DNA of 64,000 nt from Caulobacter sp. Root1455 (lineage in GTDB: Bacteria; Pseudomonadota; Alphaproteobacteria; Caulobacterales; Caulobacteraceae). The notes beneath the pieces were generated by a model, which worked only from the letters and a program-made list of their open reading frames with translations, searched no databases and was not told the origin of the DNA. Location: NCBI RefSeq assembly GCF_001426905.1, contig NZ_LMFQ01000022.1, forward strand, positions 124,147 to 188,146, given 5' to 3'. Position numbers and translations under genes: made by a program. Shown piece by piece: positions 17,370 to 24,480 of the stretch (its first letter is position 1; the number at the start of each line of letters is the position of its first letter).

Positions 17370-17917
17370 GACATCCCCCGACCGAACCAAGCCTTTTGCC
17401 GCGAAGGGGGTGGCCAAGAGCTTAACCGGGGCCCGCTGCGACGAACGGTCGCCCCGCGCCAGACGGGCGCTCGAGGCTTCCGGGGGCGCGCCCGGGCTCG
17501 CCCGCGGGCCTCGCTTTGTGCGCTTGCACATATCGATAATCGATCTCGGAATATCGACTTTCGATGAGCAACGTTATAATAGTTACAGGACTGTAAGGAT
17601 TCATTTCAGATCATATAGATCAAGGAACCCTTATATTTGCAGTCAAGCTTGGATATCGGCGTTCTATCTACATCACATTGCACCGCTGACACCTAAAAGA
17701 CCCATTGTCGCCGCATTTCGGTATCGGCAGTTGCTTGGATGTGACAGGTCCTAGACATATTGATTACATAGTGGCGTCGACGATTGACGGGCGTCTTTGG
17801 CGGCTCCTATCCCAAAGGCAACCGGGGACGCAGATCCATCCGGGAAACCTGAAACTGACAGGGCGACGGGACGAGCGGGTCGACGAGACCAGACTCCGAG
17901 CGCCTGGAGGGACCGAT
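17370..17917. promoter_or_regulatory. Long divergent promoter region (548 bp) with AT-rich core
   Basis: Between the divergent kinase and TonB receptor genes. The part from about 17525 to 17770 is much richer in A+T than anything nearby. It has a run of ATCGA-type repeats (tatcgataatcgat, atatcgac, tttcgat), a perfect TATAAT at 17575-17580, and cttatatt near 17630. A good -35 box for the TATAAT was not found. A spaced cggcgttct/tatctac tract follows. No gene is supported here. It probably binds regulators of the TonB receptor gene. Confidence 0.5.
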
Positions 17918-20779
17918 ATGAAATTGCAAATCACCCGCGGACGCCTGTTCGCGACGACGATGATCGCGGGGGTCGCCACCTTCGCCGCCTTCGCCGCGAA
18001 CGCGCAGACCGCGCCGGCGCCCGCCGCCCAGGCCGCGCCCGCCGACAACGAGGTCGAGGCCGTCGTCGTCACCGGTTCGCTGCTGCGGCGCACCGACGCC
18101 GAGACCCCCTCGCCCGTCACCGTCCAGACCCAGGCCCAGCTGGAACAGCGCGGCATCACCTCGGTGGCCGACGCCATCCGCACCCTGGCCGCCGACAACA
18201 GCGGCAGCATCCCCACCGCGTTCGGCAACGGCTTCGCGGCCGGTTCGTCGGGCGTCGCCCTGCGCGGCCTGTCGGTCAACTCGACCCTGGTGCTGATCGA
18301 CGGCGAACGCACCGCCAACTACCCGCTGGCCGACGACGGTCAGAAAGGCTTCGTCGACCTGAACACCATTCCGTTCAACGCGGTCGAGCGGGTCGAGACC
18401 CTGAAGGACGGCGCCTCGTCGCTGTACGGCGCCGACGCCATCGGCGGCGTGGTCAACGTGATCATGAAGTCGAACTTCCAGGGCGCGGACGCCGAGGCCT
18501 CCTACGGCGGAACCCAGCACGGCGGCGGCGCCCAGTTCCGCTTCAACGCCGAGGCCGGCTATGGCGACGTCGACGCCGACAAGTACAACGCCTATGTCGA
18601 CTTCGAATACCAGAAGGACGACCGGATCCGCATCGACCAGCGCGGTTTCCCGTTCAACAACAACGACCTGACCTCGATCGGTGGGGACAACAACAATCCC
18701 CAGCCCGGCTTCCGCGCCTCCGGCCCCTACGGCTACGCGGTGGTCGGCGGCGCCATCGACCCGGTCACCCACAAGGCCACGGCCCTGATCGATCCGGCGA
18801 CCGGCGCGGCCTATGCCGGCAACCCGCTGCGGACCTGCGGTCCCGACGCCCCGCTGACCACCGACGCCGACGGCAACAACTACTGCGCCAGCAACATCGC
18901 CACCTATGGCGACCACCAGCCCAAGCAGGAGCGCATCGGCGGCTACGGCCGCTTCACGGTCAAGCCGACCGACCACCTCGAGGCCTATCTCAGCGGCAGC
19001 ATCTTCCAGAACAAGGTCGACGTGAACAACGGCCTGCAGCAGGTCGTGGTCGGCTCGCCGCACAACACCGTGGGCATCGCCCTGCCGCAGTTCCTGCCGG
19101 ACGGCAGCCTGAACCCGATGAACCCCTATTCGGGCGCCAACCCCGCCTATGCCGGCCCGACCGGCTCGGCGCTGATCAACTACGGCTTCGGCGACATTCC
19201 GTCGAAGAACACCTACACCAACCGCGTCTACCGCATGGCGGGCGGCGTGAAGGGCGACGCGCTCGGCTGGGACTACAACTCGACCCTGGTCATCGCCCAC
19301 TCGTCGCTGGAGACCCGTCAGGAAGGCTTCATCAGCTACAACGCCCTGATCGACGTCATCACCAACGGCACCTACAACTTCATGAACCCGTCGGCCAACA
19401 GCCAGGCCGTCCGCGACAAGCTCGCGCCGGTGATGCTGAAGACCTCGACCACCGACCTGGACTCGATCGACTTCAACGCCACCCGCCAGTTCGGCGAGCT
19501 GCGCGGCGGTCCGATCGGCGTCGCCTTCGGCGGCCAGTTCCGCTACGAGGCCACCGAGGATCCGAACATCAATCCGTTCGGCGACACCCAGGGCCTGGGC
19601 TCGGCCCAGACCCGCGGCAACCGCACCGTGGCCTCGGCCTTCGGTGAAATCGGCCTGCCGGTGCTGGAGAGCCTCGAGCTGAACCTCTCGGGCCGCTACG
19701 ACCACTATTCCGACGTCGGCGGCAACTTCTCGCCGAAGCTGGCGGCCAAGTGGACCCCGATCAAGACCCTGGCCCTGCGGGCGACCTATTCGAAGGGCTT
19801 CCGCGCGCCGAGCTTCTCGGAAGGCGGCGACAGCGCCTCGATCGGCTTCACCAACTCGCAAGGCCTGCCGGCCAGCTTCATCGCGCTGCACCCTGGCTCG
19901 TTCCCGAACGGCGGCAACGCCTACACCCAGACCTACGCGTTCCAGCTGAACACCACGGCCAATCCGGACATCAAGCCGGAGAAGTCGGAAAGCTACACGT
20001 TCGGCGGCGTCTGGGCCCCCAACCGCCACTTCAGCACCTCGCTGGACTACTACCACATCGACAAGAAGGACGTGATCGCGGCCCTGACCTCGGGCCCGGC
20101 CCTGGCGGCCTACTATGCCGGCGAGCCGATCCCGCCCGGCTACACGATCACCCCGGACGCGCCCGACCCGCTGAACCCGACGGCCCTGCCGCGCGTGCTG
20201 TCGGTGGGCTCGCCCTATGTGAACGCCGACTCCCTGTCGACCAGCGGCATGGACTGGAACATCCGCACCGACTACGACCTGCCCTGGGGCGAGGTCCGCT
20301 GGACCAGCGAGCTCGATGCGACCGTGATCTTCAACTACGACTTCACGATCGCGGGCGTGACCAGCAACTACGTCGGCAAGCAAAGCCCCTACGCCCTGTC
20401 GTCGGGCGCGGGCACGCCGAAGTATCGCGGCGTGTGGACCAACAGCTTCGCTCAAGGTCCGTGGCGGATCACCGGCGCGGTCAACTATGTCAGCGGCCAG
20501 CGCTCGATCGACGCCGATTCCGGTCCCGAATGCCTCTATGACGGCGGAACCGAGATCGACAACAAGTTCTGCCACAGCAAGGCGTTCGTCGACCTGGACC
20601 TGACCGGCTCGTACGACATCAACGACAAGGTCCAGCTCCAGGCGGCGGTGCTCAACGCCACCGACGAGGGTCCGCAGTTCAACCCGGCCAACTACGCCGG
20701 CGTGAACTACAACCCGACCTTCTCGCAAGCGGGCCTCATCGGCCGGTTCTTCCGCGTCGGCGTGAAGATGAAGTACTAG
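17918..20779 (+). CDS. TonB-dependent outer-membrane receptor
   Basis: A 953-residue receptor from the ATG at 17918 (GGAGGG 8-13 bases upstream). The signal peptide is about residues 1-28 (MKLQITRGRLFATTMIAGVA, cleavage after NAQ). The TonB box region is VEAVVVTGSLL at about 41-51, followed by the plug (QLEQRGITSVADAIRTL, LRGLSVNSTLVLIDGERT, VERVETLKDGASSLYGADAI). A 22-strand barrel ends at GRFFRVGVKMKY with a terminal aromatic. The plug and barrel loops resemble the proteobacterial receptors for oligosaccharides or other large nutrients, but no specific ligand can be assigned. It is followed by a strong terminator, so it is a single-gene unit. Confidence 0.93.
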   Translation: MKLQITRGRLFATTMIAGVATFAAFAANAQTAPAPAAQAAPADNEVEAVVVTGSLLRRTDAETPSPVTVQTQAQLEQRGITSVADAIRTLAADNSGSIPTAFGNGFAAGSSGVALRGLSVNSTLVLIDGERTANYPLADDGQKGFVDLNTIPFNAVERVETLKDGASSLYGADAIGGVVNVIMKSNFQGADAEASYGGTQHGGGAQFRFNAEAGYGDVDADKYNAYVDFEYQKDDRIRIDQRGFPFNNNDLTSIGGDNNNPQPGFRASGPYGYAVVGGAIDPVTHKATALIDPATGAAYAGNPLRTCGPDAPLTTDADGNNYCASNIATYGDHQPKQERIGGYGRFTVKPTDHLEAYLSGSIFQNKVDVNNGLQQVVVGSPHNTVGIALPQFLPDGSLNPMNPYSGANPAYAGPTGSALINYGFGDIPSKNTYTNRVYRMAGGVKGDALGWDYNSTLVIAHSSLETRQEGFISYNALIDVITNGTYNFMNPSANSQAVRDKLAPVMLKTSTTDLDSIDFNATRQFGELRGGPIGVAFGGQFRYEATEDPNINPFGDTQGLGSAQTRGNRTVASAFGEIGLPVLESLELNLSGRYDHYSDVGGNFSPKLAAKWTPIKTLALRATYSKGFRAPSFSEGGDSASIGFTNSQGLPASFIALHPGSFPNGGNAYTQTYAFQLNTTANPDIKPEKSESYTFGGVWAPNRHFSTSLDYYHIDKKDVIAALTSGPALAAYYAGEPIPPGYTITPDAPDPLNPTALPRVLSVGSPYVNADSLSTSGMDWNIRTDYDLPWGEVRWTSELDATVIFNYDFTIAGVTSNYVGKQSPYALSSGAGTPKYRGVWTNSFAQGPWRITGAVNYVSGQRSIDADSGPECLYDGGTEIDNKFCHSKAFVDLDLTGSYDINDKVQLQAAVLNATDEGPQFNPANYAGVNYNPTFSQAGLIGRFFRVGVKMKY

Positions 20780-21071: not shown

Positions 21072-22904
21072 ATGGCCTCCCCGACTCGCGCCCCTGTCCT
21101 GGCTCTCAAGGACGTCCGCCTCGCCGATGGCGCCAAGCCGCTGTTCGACGGGGTCGACCTGGCGCTGGAGCCGCGGGTGCGCGCCTGCCTGGTCGGGCGC
21201 AACGGGGCCGGCAAGTCGACCCTGCTGAAGATCCTGGCCAACCAGGGGATCGAGGCCGACAGCGGCGAGCGCGCCGCCCAGCCGGGCGCCAAGATCGTCT
21301 ATGTCAGCCAGGAGCCGGACATCGCCGGCGAGACCCTGCTGGACTACTGCACGGCCGGCGGCGCCGAGGACTACGAGGCCCACGCCACCCTGGCCGACTT
21401 CGGCCTGGACTACGCCAAGAGCACGGTGGGCCTGTCGGGCGGCGAGCGTCGCCGCGCGGCCCTGGCCCGCGCCTTCGCCGAACAGCCCGACGTGCTGCTG
21501 CTGGACGAGCCGACCAACCACCTGGACATCTTCGCGATCCAGACGCTGGAAGAGGAACTGGCCAACTCCAAGTGCGCGGCCCTGATCGTCAGCCACGACC
21601 GCGCCTTCCTGAACCGCGTCACCCAACGCACCTTCTGGCTGGAGCACCGCAAGGTGCGCCGCCTGGACAAGGGCTTCGCCGAGTTCGAGATCTGGAGCGA
21701 GCAGGTGCTGGCCGCCGAGGCCGACGAGGAGCGTCGCCTCAACAAGCAGCTGGAAAAGGAAAACGCCTGGCTGGCGCGCGGCGTCCAGGGCCGCCGGGCC
21801 CGCAACGAGGGCCGCCGCCGCGCCCTGATGGACCTGCGCGCCCAGAAGCGTGACATCCAGGCCGACAAGCGCGGCAGCATGACCCTGGCCGTCGAGAGCT
21901 CGGGCACCTCCGGCAAGAAGGTGGTCGAGGCCAAGCACGTCACCAAGACATTCGGCGACCGGGTGATCGTCGAGGACTTCTCCACCCGCATCCTGCGCGG
22001 CGACCGCGTGGCCCTGGTCGGCCCCAACGGGGCGGGCAAGACCACCCTGGTGCGCATGCTGCTGGGCGAGATCCCGATCGACGCCGGCACGATCAGCCTG
22101 GGCACCAATCTGGAGATCTCCTACGTCGACCAGAACCGCATGGCGCTGTCGGAGAAGATGACGCTGTGGGACTTCCTGACCCCCGGCGGCGGCGACTCCA
22201 TCCTGGTGCGCGGCATTCCCAAGCACGTGGCCGGCTACGCCAAGGAGTTCCTGTTCACCGAGGCCCAGCTGCGCCAGCCGGTCACCAGCCTGTCGGGCGG
22301 CGAGCGCAACCGCCTGCTGCTGGCTCGGGCCCTGGCCACGCCGACCAACCTGATGGTGCTGGACGAACCGACCAACGACCTGGACATGGACACCCTGGAC
22401 CTGCTGGAAGAGGTTCTGGCTGATTTCGAGGGAACCCTGATCCTGGTCAGCCACGATCGTGACTTCATCGATCGCCTGGCCACCTCGACCATCGCCATGA
22501 ACGGCCACGGCCGGGTGCTGGAGACCCCCGGCGGCTGGAGCGACCTGATCGACCAGGCCCCGGACTTCTTCAAGGGCGCCCGCGGCGCGGCCGGCGACTT
22601 CGCCACCGGCACGGGCTCGCACAAGGCGGTGATCACGCCTTCGGCTCCCCCCCCGCCGAAGAAGACCGTCAAGCTGTCCTACAAGGACCAGCGGCGGCTG
22701 GAGGAGTGCGAGGCCCTGATCGCCGCCTCGCCGAAGATCATCGCCGACATCGAGGCCAAGCTGGCCGATCCGGGCTTCTACGCCCGCGATCCCAAGGGCT
22801 TCGACAAGGTCATGAAGGACCTCGACAAGGCCCGCGCCGACCTGGCCACGGCCGAGGAAGACTGGCTGGCGCTGGAAGAGAAGCGCGAGGCGATGGCGGG
22901 GTAG
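21072..22904 (+). CDS. uup: ABC-F ATPase, Uup type
   Basis: A 610-residue soluble protein with two ABC cassettes. The first Walker A is GRNGAGKST (42-50) with LSGGERRRAALARA and DEPTNHLD. The second is GPNGAGKTT near 318 with LSGGERNRLLLARA and DEPTNDLD. A charged linker joins them, and a C-terminal coiled coil follows (YKDQRRLEECEALIAAS, KVMKDLDKARADLATAEED). The long C-terminal coiled coil is the mark of Uup among ABC-F proteins, which act on ribosomes or branched nucleic acids rather than in transport. There are no membrane segments. A family F repeat follows. Confidence 0.92.
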   Translation: MASPTRAPVLALKDVRLADGAKPLFDGVDLALEPRVRACLVGRNGAGKSTLLKILANQGIEADSGERAAQPGAKIVYVSQEPDIAGETLLDYCTAGGAEDYEAHATLADFGLDYAKSTVGLSGGERRRAALARAFAEQPDVLLLDEPTNHLDIFAIQTLEEELANSKCAALIVSHDRAFLNRVTQRTFWLEHRKVRRLDKGFAEFEIWSEQVLAAEADEERRLNKQLEKENAWLARGVQGRRARNEGRRRALMDLRAQKRDIQADKRGSMTLAVESSGTSGKKVVEAKHVTKTFGDRVIVEDFSTRILRGDRVALVGPNGAGKTTLVRMLLGEIPIDAGTISLGTNLEISYVDQNRMALSEKMTLWDFLTPGGGDSILVRGIPKHVAGYAKEFLFTEAQLRQPVTSLSGGERNRLLLARALATPTNLMVLDEPTNDLDMDTLDLLEEVLADFEGTLILVSHDRDFIDRLATSTIAMNGHGRVLETPGGWSDLIDQAPDFFKGARGAAGDFATGTGSHKAVITPSAPPPPKKTVKLSYKDQRRLEECEALIAASPKIIADIEAKLADPGFYARDPKGFDKVMKDLDKARADLATAEEDWLALEEKREAMAG

Positions 22905-22921: not shown

Positions 22922-23013
22922 GAATTCCTCGTCCTTCGACAAGCTCAGGATGAGGAATTCGAATGCCAACCACACCAAACTAGCCCTCATCCTGAGCTTG
23001 TCGAAGGACGAGG
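22922..23013. repeat. Interspersed repeat, family F copy 1
   Basis: cctcgtccttcgacaagctc and gagcttgtcgaaggacgagg are inverted arms, with tcaggatgaggaattcgaat between. The second copy is at 24390. Confidence 0.85.
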
Positions 23014-23080
23014 GCGGCCCCTCCGCCGGGCCTCACACACCCTAGTGACACGCCGTCGACTTGCCTCTAGGCTTGCGCCC

Positions 23081-23164
23081 ATGATCCTCGCCGCCAGCCA
23101 ACAGCTGTTTTGGTATTTTAGCTATCCGACGCCTCTGGCGCCGGGAGGGGATCGTTCGGCCTGA
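23081..23164 (+). CDS. Aromatic amino acid leader peptide upstream of DAHP synthase
   Basis: A 27-residue frame, ATG to TGA. Residues 10-15 read F-W-Y-F-S-Y, five aromatic codons in six (TTT TGG TAT TTT AGC TAT at 23108-23125). All three aromatic amino acids are represented, which fits an enzyme that starts the common aromatic pathway. The peptide lies 97 bases before the DAHP synthase start and overlaps the first two pairing segments of an attenuator. The upstream ribosome site is weak. This is inferred to be a cis-acting leader rather than a functional peptide. Confidence 0.88.
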   Translation: MILAASQQLFWYFSYPTPLAPGGDRSA

Positions 23165-23221
23165 AATCAGAGCCGCAAACGCCTTTCACCAGCCGCCAGG
23201 GGTTCCCCGGGCGGCTTTTTT
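23089..23221 (+). promoter_or_regulatory. Transcription attenuator of the DAHP synthase gene
   Basis: Four segments can be paired in the classical way. Segment 1 (23089-23097, cgccgccag) pairs 8 of 9 with segment 2 (23135-23143, ctggcgccg). Segment 2 (23132-23140, cctctggcg) pairs with segment 3 (23194-23202, cgccagggg; one G-U). Segment 3 (23191-23197, agccgcc) pairs with segment 4 (23210-23216, ggcggct) and is followed by six T, forming a terminator. A ribosome stalled at the aromatic codons (23108-23125) would cover segment 1 and free segment 2 to disrupt the terminator. Shortage of Phe, Trp or Tyr would therefore raise DAHP synthase expression. The pairings are seen; the mechanism is inferred from known trp/phe attenuators. 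Confidence 0.85.
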
Positions 23222-23260
23222 CATGGCCGCCGGACCTCCAGACCTTCCAGGAGTTACGCC

Positions 23261-24352
23261 GTGCCTTCCTCGACCGCCGCCCATCTCGTCTCGCTGCCCG
23301 TCCCCACCGACGACCTGCGCATTGAAAAGCTTCAGACCCTCAGTCCGCCCGCCCAGGTGATCGGCGAGGCGCCGGCCACCTCGTCGGTCGCCGAGGTCGT
23401 CGGCGACGCCCGTCGCGCCGTGCACGAGATCCTGAGCGGTCGCGACGACCGGCTGGTGGTGGTGATCGGGCCGTGCTCGATCCACGACCCCAAGGCCGCC
23501 CTGGAGTACGCCCGCCGCCTGGCCGTCGAGCGCGAGCGCCATGCGGGCGAGCTGGAGGTGATCATGCGGGTCTATTTCGAGAAGCCCCGCACCACGGTCG
23601 GCTGGAAGGGCCTGATCAACGACCCGGACCTGGACGGCGGCTTCCGGATCAACGAGGGCCTGCGGCTGGCGCGGCGGGTTCTGCTGGACGTCAGCGCCCA
23701 GGGCCTGCCGGCGGCCTGCGAGTTCCTGGACGTCACCACCCCGCAATACATCGCCGACCTGGTGGCCTGGGGCGCGATCGGCGCGCGCACCACCGAAAGC
23801 CAGATCCACCGCGAGATGGCCTCGGGCCTGTCGTGCCCGGTCGGCTTCAAGAACGGCACCAACGGCGACGTGAAGGTGGCCGTGGACGCGGTGACCGCCG
23901 CCGCCCAGCCGCACCATTTCCTGGCCGTGACCAAGGAGGGCCGCGCGGCCATCGCCACCACCACCGGCAACGCCGACTGCCATGTGGTGCTGCGCGGCGG
24001 CGCGACGCCCAACTATGACGAAGTCAGCGTGGCGGCGGCGGCGCAGGCCTTGGCCAAGGCGGGTCTGGCGCCCCGCATCATGGTCGACGCCAGCCACGCC
24101 AACAGCGGCAAGAACCACGACAACCAGCCCGCCGTCGTGGCCGACCTCTGCGCCCAGGTCGCGACCGGCCGCTCGCCGGTCATGGGCGTGATGATCGAGA
24201 GCAATCTCGTCGCCGGCCGCCAGGACATCGTCCCCGGCCAACCCCTGACCTACGGCCAGTCGGTGACCGACGCCTGCGTCGACTGGGGGACCTCGGTCGG
24301 CCTGCTCGACGCGCTGGCGGCGGCGGTGCGGGCCGGGCGGCGGGCGCGGTAG
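23261..24352 (+). CDS. aroG: 3-deoxy-7-phosphoheptulonate (DAHP) synthase, class I
   Basis: A 363-residue cytosolic enzyme condensing phosphoenolpyruvate and erythrose 4-phosphate, the first step of aromatic amino acid synthesis. Class I (AroFGH-type) motifs are VVVIGPCSIHDPKAALEYA with metal ligand C72, MRVYFEKPRTTVGWKGLIND, GARTTESQIHREMASGLS, VGFKNGTNGD, and IMVDASHANSGKNHDNQP. The start is the GTG at 23261 following the attenuator. The N-terminal 45 residues correspond to the extension that in this class helps bind feedback inhibitors; which amino acid inhibits this isozyme cannot be read. It appears monocistronic, with a family F repeat downstream. Confidence 0.95.
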   Translation: MPSSTAAHLVSLPVPTDDLRIEKLQTLSPPAQVIGEAPATSSVAEVVGDARRAVHEILSGRDDRLVVVIGPCSIHDPKAALEYARRLAVERERHAGELEVIMRVYFEKPRTTVGWKGLINDPDLDGGFRINEGLRLARRVLLDVSAQGLPAACEFLDVTTPQYIADLVAWGAIGARTTESQIHREMASGLSCPVGFKNGTNGDVKVAVDAVTAAAQPHHFLAVTKEGRAAIATTTGNADCHVVLRGGATPNYDEVSVAAAAQALAKAGLAPRIMVDASHANSGKNHDNQPAVVADLCAQVATGRSPVMGVMIESNLVAGRQDIVPGQPLTYGQSVTDACVDWGTSVGLLDALAAAVRAGRRAR

Positions 24353-24389: not shown

Positions 24390-24480
24390 CTCGTCCTTCG
24401 ACAAGCTCGGGATGAGGCCCGCTTCTGCGACGGCTGAGTTCGAATTCCTCATCCTGAGCCTGTCGAAGGACGAGGAATTC
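24390..24480. repeat. Interspersed repeat, family F copy 2
   Basis: Inverted arms cctcgtccttcgacaagctc and cctgtcgaaggacgagg, with one or two changes from copy 1. It lies just upstream of the EcfG-type promoter. Confidence 0.83.

Follow-up and report, generated by a model that had tools for sequence, protein, structure and literature searches.

What controls carbon flow into aromatic amino acids in Caulobacter sp. Root1455, and does the short stretch in front of its class-I DAHP synthase gene take part? DAHP synthase sets carbon entry into aromatic synthesis. In E. coli, the DAHP synthase isoenzyme genes are described as being controlled by the repressors TyrR and TrpR (PMC11802643, PMC5343134). 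For the Caulobacter gene, a preliminary description proposed a complete aromatic amino acid attenuator within the window, which is the whole 64,000-nt stretch of DNA analyzed. The evidence assembled here indicates that the element is very probably a ribosome-mediated transcription attenuator that answers a shortage of charged aromatic tRNAs. Its parts are listed in Table 1.

Table 1. Features of the DAHP synthase leader region, in window coordinates
Feature	Position	Strand	Basis or remark
Putative -35 element GTGACA (5/6 vs TTGACA)	23045..23050	+	17-nt spacer to -10; position relative to leader ATG similar in relatives
Putative -10 element TAGGCT (3/6 vs TATAAT)	23068..23073	+	7 nt ahead of leader ATG
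Leader ORF with stop, 27 codons, encoding MILAASQQLFWYFSYPTPLAPGGDRSA	23081..23164	+	ATG at 23081, TGA at 23162-23164; without Shine-Dalgarno; conserved in relatives
Segment 1	23089..23097	+	pairs with 23135-23143 (8/9); weak comparative support
Control codons Phe-Trp-Tyr-Phe-Ser-Tyr (TTT TGG TAT TTT AGC TAT)	23108..23125	+	aromatic cluster in relatives' elements
Segment 2, antiterminator 5' arm, within leader ORF	23132..23145	+	Leu19/Ala20 third codon positions nearly fixed
Segment 3, common to antiterminator and terminator	23189..23202	+	pairing and comparison
Segment 4, terminator 3' arm	23205..23216	+	pairing and comparison
T run of intrinsic terminator	23216..23221	+	sequence
Shine-Dalgarno AGGAG of DAHP synthase gene	23249..23253	+	sequence
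Class-I (AroG-type) DAHP synthase, GTG start	23261..24352	+	TIGR00034, E 1.2e-155; sole class-I match in genome

The anatomy of the locus agrees closely with the preliminary description. The 27-codon leader with its FWYFSY series at codons 10-15 is correctly placed and correctly translated. The pairing of segment 1 with 23135-23143 exists, as does that of 23132-23140 with 23194-23202 (9/9 positions, including one G-U) and the terminator pairing of 23191-23197 with 23210-23216 (7/7). The motif CGCCAG is present in both segment 1 (23092-23097) and segment 3 (23194-23199). The terminator had been credited with six T beyond its stem; all six are there, but the first is already paired with A23191. 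As a whole, the intrinsic terminator spans 23191-23221, and its hairpin folds at about -20 kcal/mol. A simple terminator scan of the window did not list this hairpin, probably because of a mismatch in the longer stem. None of 200 dinucleotide shuffles folds as well as the leader RNA (z -2.9).

As in a classical attenuator, a short translatable ORF rich in codons for products of the pathway lies upstream of the gene, and an intrinsic terminator stands between the ORF and the gene. The antiterminator shares an arm with the terminator; its pairing is above the controls, and its covariation measures are not. The attenuators of E. coli trpL and pheL also have a terminator and an antiterminator.

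This combination is not readily produced by chance. Both strands of the window were divided into 284 stretches of 480 nt (step 450), which were searched for an ORF 10-45 codons long that has five or more aromatic residues in seven codons and is followed by a hairpin with a T run. Only one of the 284 stretches passes, and it is the DAHP synthase leader itself, so a chance origin of leader and terminator is rejected. When four aromatic residues in seven suffice and the hairpin test is dropped, five of the 284 stretches pass. An identity as a known Rfam riboswitch or leader is also rejected, since no covariance model matches the element. The window gives no Rfam match at the gathering score, and positions 22950-23350 give none up to E 1. 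Across 20 related loci, two glycine riboswitch hits are the only ones, both in one locus (L126) and away from the element. They correspond to two tandem glycine riboswitch aptamers (L126:417-610) near a related DAHP synthase locus.

Elements of the same build are present in many relatives. Loci were taken from the best 80 of at least 585 relatives in genome contigs, and from genomes of the family (149), the class (385), and the phylum (398). These sources provide 146 loci with a DAHP synthase match, which become 137 distinct loci after removal of nine exact duplicates. Each was examined for a short ORF with at least three aromatic residues in seven codons and for a hairpin with a T run within 110 nt; 130 pass, six are without the leader, and one is without the terminator. 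Two of the 130 (L071 and L075) were dropped because their hairpins are without the common core (CCGCC, CCGCT, or CCGTC). An aromatic leader followed by the common core terminator is thus found at 128 of the 137 distinct loci, a sample biased toward close relatives. The leader codons, antiterminator core, and terminator, whose conservation the preliminary description had made decisive, recur there in the same order. By source, the count is 71 of the 80 genome-contig loci (the best 80 of at least 585), 24 of 24 distinct family loci, and 25 of 25 distinct phylum loci, and the remainder came from the leader search. Without the seven loci found only by leader search (L112 and L115-L120), the figure is 121 of 130. 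For the structural counts, 121 distinct elements were left.

Carriers occur in alpha-, beta-, and gammaproteobacteria. Named carriers are Caulobacter, Bradyrhizobium, Devosia, Kaistia, Rhizobium, Methylosinus, Bordetella, Castellaniella, Advenella, Oxalicibacterium, Massilia, Robbsia, Tepidimonas, Pseudoxanthomonas, and Rhodanobacter. Taxonomic lookup places Devosia in the alpha class, Castellaniella and Oxalicibacterium in the beta class, and Pseudoxanthomonas in the gamma class. Not every class-I DAHP synthase gene has the element. Among 40 lower-ranking loci chosen from the phylum listing (56-65% identity), the leader and core terminator are present in 10, and three others (L177, L179, and L181) have a leader and no clear terminator. 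Reading of the sequences revealed no leader of this kind at the remaining 27 of these 40 more distant loci.

The leader is also tied to its gene when it is searched for directly. A profile built from 29 leaders has 38 matches in 37 of the 398 phylum genomes, and 35 of the 38 lie directly before a DAHP synthase gene. These 35 comprise 30 of the collected loci and L224, each with the adjoining gene, and four matches placed by coordinates within ~300 nt upstream of one (G699, G702, G735, and G863). The three matches without a DAHP synthase gene (G705:C129, G706, and G659) are weak, at E 0.003-0.004. A 21-leader profile searched against 385 alphaproteobacterial genomes gives 11 matches, nine of them before a DAHP synthase gene. 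Of the other two, one is cut by a contig end (L114), and one is weak with no DAHP synthase gene nearby (L121).

The aromatic codons themselves suggest what the leader reads. Judged by its codons, the Caulobacter leader would sense Phe, Trp, and Tyr, a combination that the preliminary description considered unusual. Phe, Trp, and Tyr codons occur together in the clusters of 89 of the 121 elements. However, 31 clusters hold Phe and Tyr without a Trp codon, one holds Phe and Trp, and earlier leaders before DAHP synthase genes exist. Codon choice within the clusters is strongly skewed, with 259 TTT against 39 TTC among the Phe codons of the 121 elements. None of the 70 Phe codons in three long window ORFs (17705-20779, 21072-22904, and the DAHP synthase gene) is TTT. 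The U-rich nature of the control codons leaves the stall site clear of the GC-rich segments, and these codons may also slow decoding.

The three mutually exclusive pairings are not equally backed by comparison. Alignments were made of 48 rows chosen for diversity from the 121 distinct elements, and of 27 rows of the Caulobacteraceae type. The terminator stem covaries. Across the 48 rows, 98.8% of its cells are paired and 13 cells are changed on both sides, and none of 500 column shuffles reaches its percent paired, its changed cells, or its covariation score. One pair changes from G-C to A-U in 11 rows. Two measures are less extreme, as the number of pairs changed on both sides is reached by 67 of 500 shuffles and the number of pair types by 59 of 500.

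The antiterminator (2:3) is supported as a pairing. Its core is 89.8% paired across the 48 rows, a value matched by three of 500 shuffles, and pairing falls to 17-59% when the arms are slid by 1-3 columns. In the 27 Caulobacteraceae rows, 2:3 pairing is 91.8% (reached by 27 of 500 shuffles). In a free helix search, the best 2:3 helix is reached by at most five of 100 shuffles in 76 of the 121 elements, among which related sequences are not independent. The covariation of the antiterminator is modest. Only three cells are changed on both sides, and no covariation measure rises above the shuffles (changed pairs reached by 121 of 500, changed cells by 88, pair types by 398, and the score by 98). 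In the Rhizobium type, segment 3 reads CCGCT and segment 2 reads AGCGG, so that a G-C of 2:3 becomes A-U and 3:4 is left with G-U. In the eight elements of this type, the 2:3 helix has just 5-7 bp and is reached by 34-63 of 100 shuffles. A second, inner antiterminator tier, seen by eye in clade alignments, was rejected, as it reaches the 5% level in three of 120 elements and is not above shuffles.

Stem 1:2 is the weakest of the three. In the 27 Caulobacteraceae rows, it is 77.8% paired, and 296 of 500 column shuffles pair at least as well. In the free helix search, it beats shuffles in 39 of 121 elements, including 16 of 27 in Caulobacteraceae. The stem may be of importance to certain lineages only. 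The word "complete" in the preliminary description goes beyond the evidence. Energy tests with dinucleotide shuffles, a weak test in a GC-rich stretch, reach the 5% level for 2:3 in 61 of 130 loci and for 1:2 in 56 of 130. Spacing within the element is narrow, with interquartile ranges of 19-21 nt from the end of segment 2 to the stop codon and 22.5-28.5 nt from the stop codon to segment 3.

The leader probably begins at the very 5' end of its transcript. When 120 elements are aligned at the leader ATG (one of the 121, without 60 nt upstream, was left out), promoter-like hits gather where the -10 hexamer starts 12-15 nt before the ATG, with 93 hits there against 30 over 26 other scanned positions. 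Given the -10 element 7 nt before the Caulobacter ATG, the first transcribed nucleotide is probably that of the ATG or one next to it. A stricter promoter scan of the window listed none upstream of the leader. In 107 of the 120 elements, no four consecutive letters of AAGGAGG occur from -17 to -5. Promoter position and the missing Shine-Dalgarno sequence together suggest that the leader mRNA is leaderless, as reported for trpL of Sinorhizobium meliloti (PMC10117765).

These parts would work as follows. RNA polymerase would start at or next to the leader ATG, and a ribosome would begin on the leaderless transcript. When charged Phe, Trp, or Tyr tRNA is short, the ribosome would stall at codons 10-13 and leave segment 2 free. 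Once clear of the polymerase, segment 3 would pair with segment 2, the 3:4 terminator would not form, and the DAHP synthase gene would be transcribed. With charged tRNA abundant for each of the three amino acids, the ribosome would cross segment 2 and reach the stop codon at 23162. Segment 2 would then be masked or refolded with segment 1, and the 3:4 hairpin with its T run would end transcription near 23221.

Modeled folding fits this scheme during transcription and not at equilibrium. The ribosome was modeled with a footprint that runs from 15 nt before to 12 nt after the first base of its A-site codon. When the ribosome stands at the first aromatic codon and the RNA ends before segment 4, 2:3 forms in 113 of 121 elements; when the segment-2 stretch is shuffled (20 rounds), the mean is 70 and the maximum 77. 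Once segment 4 is included and folding is taken to equilibrium, the same ribosome position abolishes the terminator in just 42 of 121 elements. In the window element, a ribosome at Phe10 removes the terminator, and one at Trp11 or later leaves it in place. A ribosome at the stop codon removes it in three of 121 elements (nine if pairing across the ribosome is allowed). When no ribosome is present, 17 of 121 elements do not form the terminator, among them the window element. Equilibrium folding of the 121 elements thus fails to reproduce the switch or to separate the ribosome states. Since folding before segment 4 is made does separate them, the element is read as a kinetic switch in which the first-formed helix decides. 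The argument for the mechanism rests on this modeled folding during transcription.

The tail of the leader peptide carries two kinds of constraint. In 55 dereplicated leaders, the third positions of codons 19-20 (Leu19/Ala20) are nearly fixed, which indicates conservation at the RNA level in segment 2. Some leaders (L108, L110, and L065) have the tail in another reading frame with the letters of segment 2 unchanged, as expected if the RNA is selected. In the same 55 leaders, the entropies at codon positions 1/2/3 are 0.81/0.68/1.77 for Pro18 and 0.80/0.91/1.76 for Arg25, in a count made without L032, L108, L109, L110, and L149, some of them frame-shifted, an omission that favors finding amino acid conservation. 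By this entropy count, used in place of a formal selection test, the conservation of Pro18 and Arg25 across leaders from several classes seems to lie at the amino acid level. The attenuation mechanism does not explain their conservation.

Several readings would give the peptide or its RNA a further role. In the broadest, all of these elements descend from a single ancient attenuator, its leader is leaderless, and the peptide tail is under its own selection. The element would be an OR-switch for entry into the aromatic pathway in alpha-, beta-, and gammaproteobacteria, opened by a shortage of any one of Phe, Trp, and Tyr, and the peptide or short RNA would also act as a nascent chain or in trans. 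Taken with all its parts, this reading is very unlikely. The narrower proposal that the attenuator acts and its short RNA or peptide also acts in trans is very improbable. It has a precedent in the rnTrpL and peTrpL products described for S. meliloti (PMC10117765, PMC7298713), and a leaderless attenuator RNA of ~141 nt would arise here whenever aromatic amino acids are plentiful.

It is just as improbable that the leader encodes a small protein with its own job, followed by an ordinary terminator that merely separates transcripts. A leader peptide recognizable across three proteobacterial classes is what such a protein would look like, but its association with DAHP synthase genes in 35 of 38 matches points elsewhere. 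Additionally, segment 2 repeats an arm of the terminator and is held at third codon positions, and a conserved terminator between a promoter and a gene 39 nt downstream would be hard to explain without regulated read-through. Least likely of all is an arrest peptide of the TnaC kind with opposite sign, whose nascent chain would sense free aromatic amino acids, stall the ribosome near the stop codon, and favor the terminator; the constraint on Pro18 and Arg25 at the first two codon positions, with the third free to vary, would suit it, but the aromatic codons differ in order, number, and kind among clades, the frame-shifted tails exist, and the aromatic cluster is so placed that a stall at its codons would leave segment 2 unpaired.

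As a ribosome-mediated attenuator, the element is of a known kind in both mechanism and architecture. One of the closest counterparts by description is aroR-aroF of Corynebacterium glutamicum, where adjacent aromatic codons (Phe-Tyr-Phe) lie in a leader peptide ahead of a DAHP synthase gene and control by ribosome stalling is reported (Neshat et al., 2014; PMC4046766, PMC11802643). However, this is an actinobacterium, the cited text names no Trp codon, and the aroF leader is described as responding to Phe, with Tyr having no effect (PMC11802643). Among proteobacteria, attenuators are predicted before a DAHP synthase-tyrA operon (aroA-I-alpha_Y > tyrA) in two Vibrio species (Merino's database, Table 7, PMC1173090), and attenuation of E. 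coli aroF-tyrA has been hypothesized (Camakaris, 1980, cited in PMC8632094). Both concern a proteobacterial class-I DAHP synthase gene, but the cited passages describe no leader peptide, and the likeness is one of description only. The uORFC-13-1 motif, predicted by comparison before Acholeplasma aroF, combines a uORF that holds one or more Phe codons with a terminator, likewise ahead of a DAHP synthase gene (PMC8632094). Unlike the present element, it is listed there for Acholeplasma and environmental sequences only, has an RBS, and is described without a triple aromatic cluster.

Other attenuators share single features. The trp attenuator of S. meliloti (trpL/rnTrpL/peTrpL) is alphaproteobacterial and has a leaderless leader ORF, but its leader is described as 14 amino acids long, stands before trpE, and concerns Trp (PMC10117765). 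In E. coli, trpL and pheL hold codons for the end product in the leader, but they serve end-branch operons and a single amino acid each (PMC11802643). Caulobacter ribosome profiling names the trpS and ilv leaders, and its main text does not mention DAHP or aroG (PMC4117421). A survey of premature terminators does not mention aroG, aroF, or DAHP in its main text (PMC2965389). Searches of the main texts of open-access papers brought up no account of this DAHP synthase leader in proteobacteria, and an earlier prediction may exist elsewhere. The preliminary description had called it unusual that one leader senses all three aromatic amino acids for the first pathway step. The C. glutamicum, Acholeplasma, Vibrio, and E. 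coli cases provide precedents for the position. As far as these sources reach, what is new is this gene with this leader, the possible threefold specificity, the breadth, and the probable leaderless start.

The breadth suggests that many other proteobacteria may use one translated RNA switch that reads up to three end products at once. Short leaders of this sort are easily overlooked in annotation. The element would be a ready-made natural sensor of aromatic amino acids.

The 5.08-Mb genome has one class-I DAHP synthase match only, the gene at 23261-24352, and the profile search of this genome returns a single leader (E 1.6e-16; the runner-up is at E 1.6). A class-II DAHP synthase (PF01474) is encoded elsewhere in the genome (G000:C24:739344-740660, locus L125), and inspection of its 5' flank by eye revealed no aromatic leader. 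The closest relatives of the class-I gene among the named-genome matches listed have ~90% identity and are mostly from Caulobacter species. A class-I DAHP synthase is likewise encoded by C. vibrioides, the reference species. The distribution of the gene is patchy; of 22 other genomes in the genus, 17 have it. In the family, 35 of the 149 genomes searched have a match at E 0.001, and no fewer than two of these are weak.

The DAHP synthase unit is flanked on both sides by inverted pairs of a repeat. Copies like TCCTTCGACAAGCTCAGGATGAG (at most four mismatches) and their complements occur at 22932-22954 (+), 22986-23008 (-), 24394-24416 (+), and 24448-24470 (-). In a plasmid search with the locus, the flanking repeat alone matched, and the copy at 22986-23008 sits within a 95% match to Rhizobium and Nitratireductor plasmids (four records).
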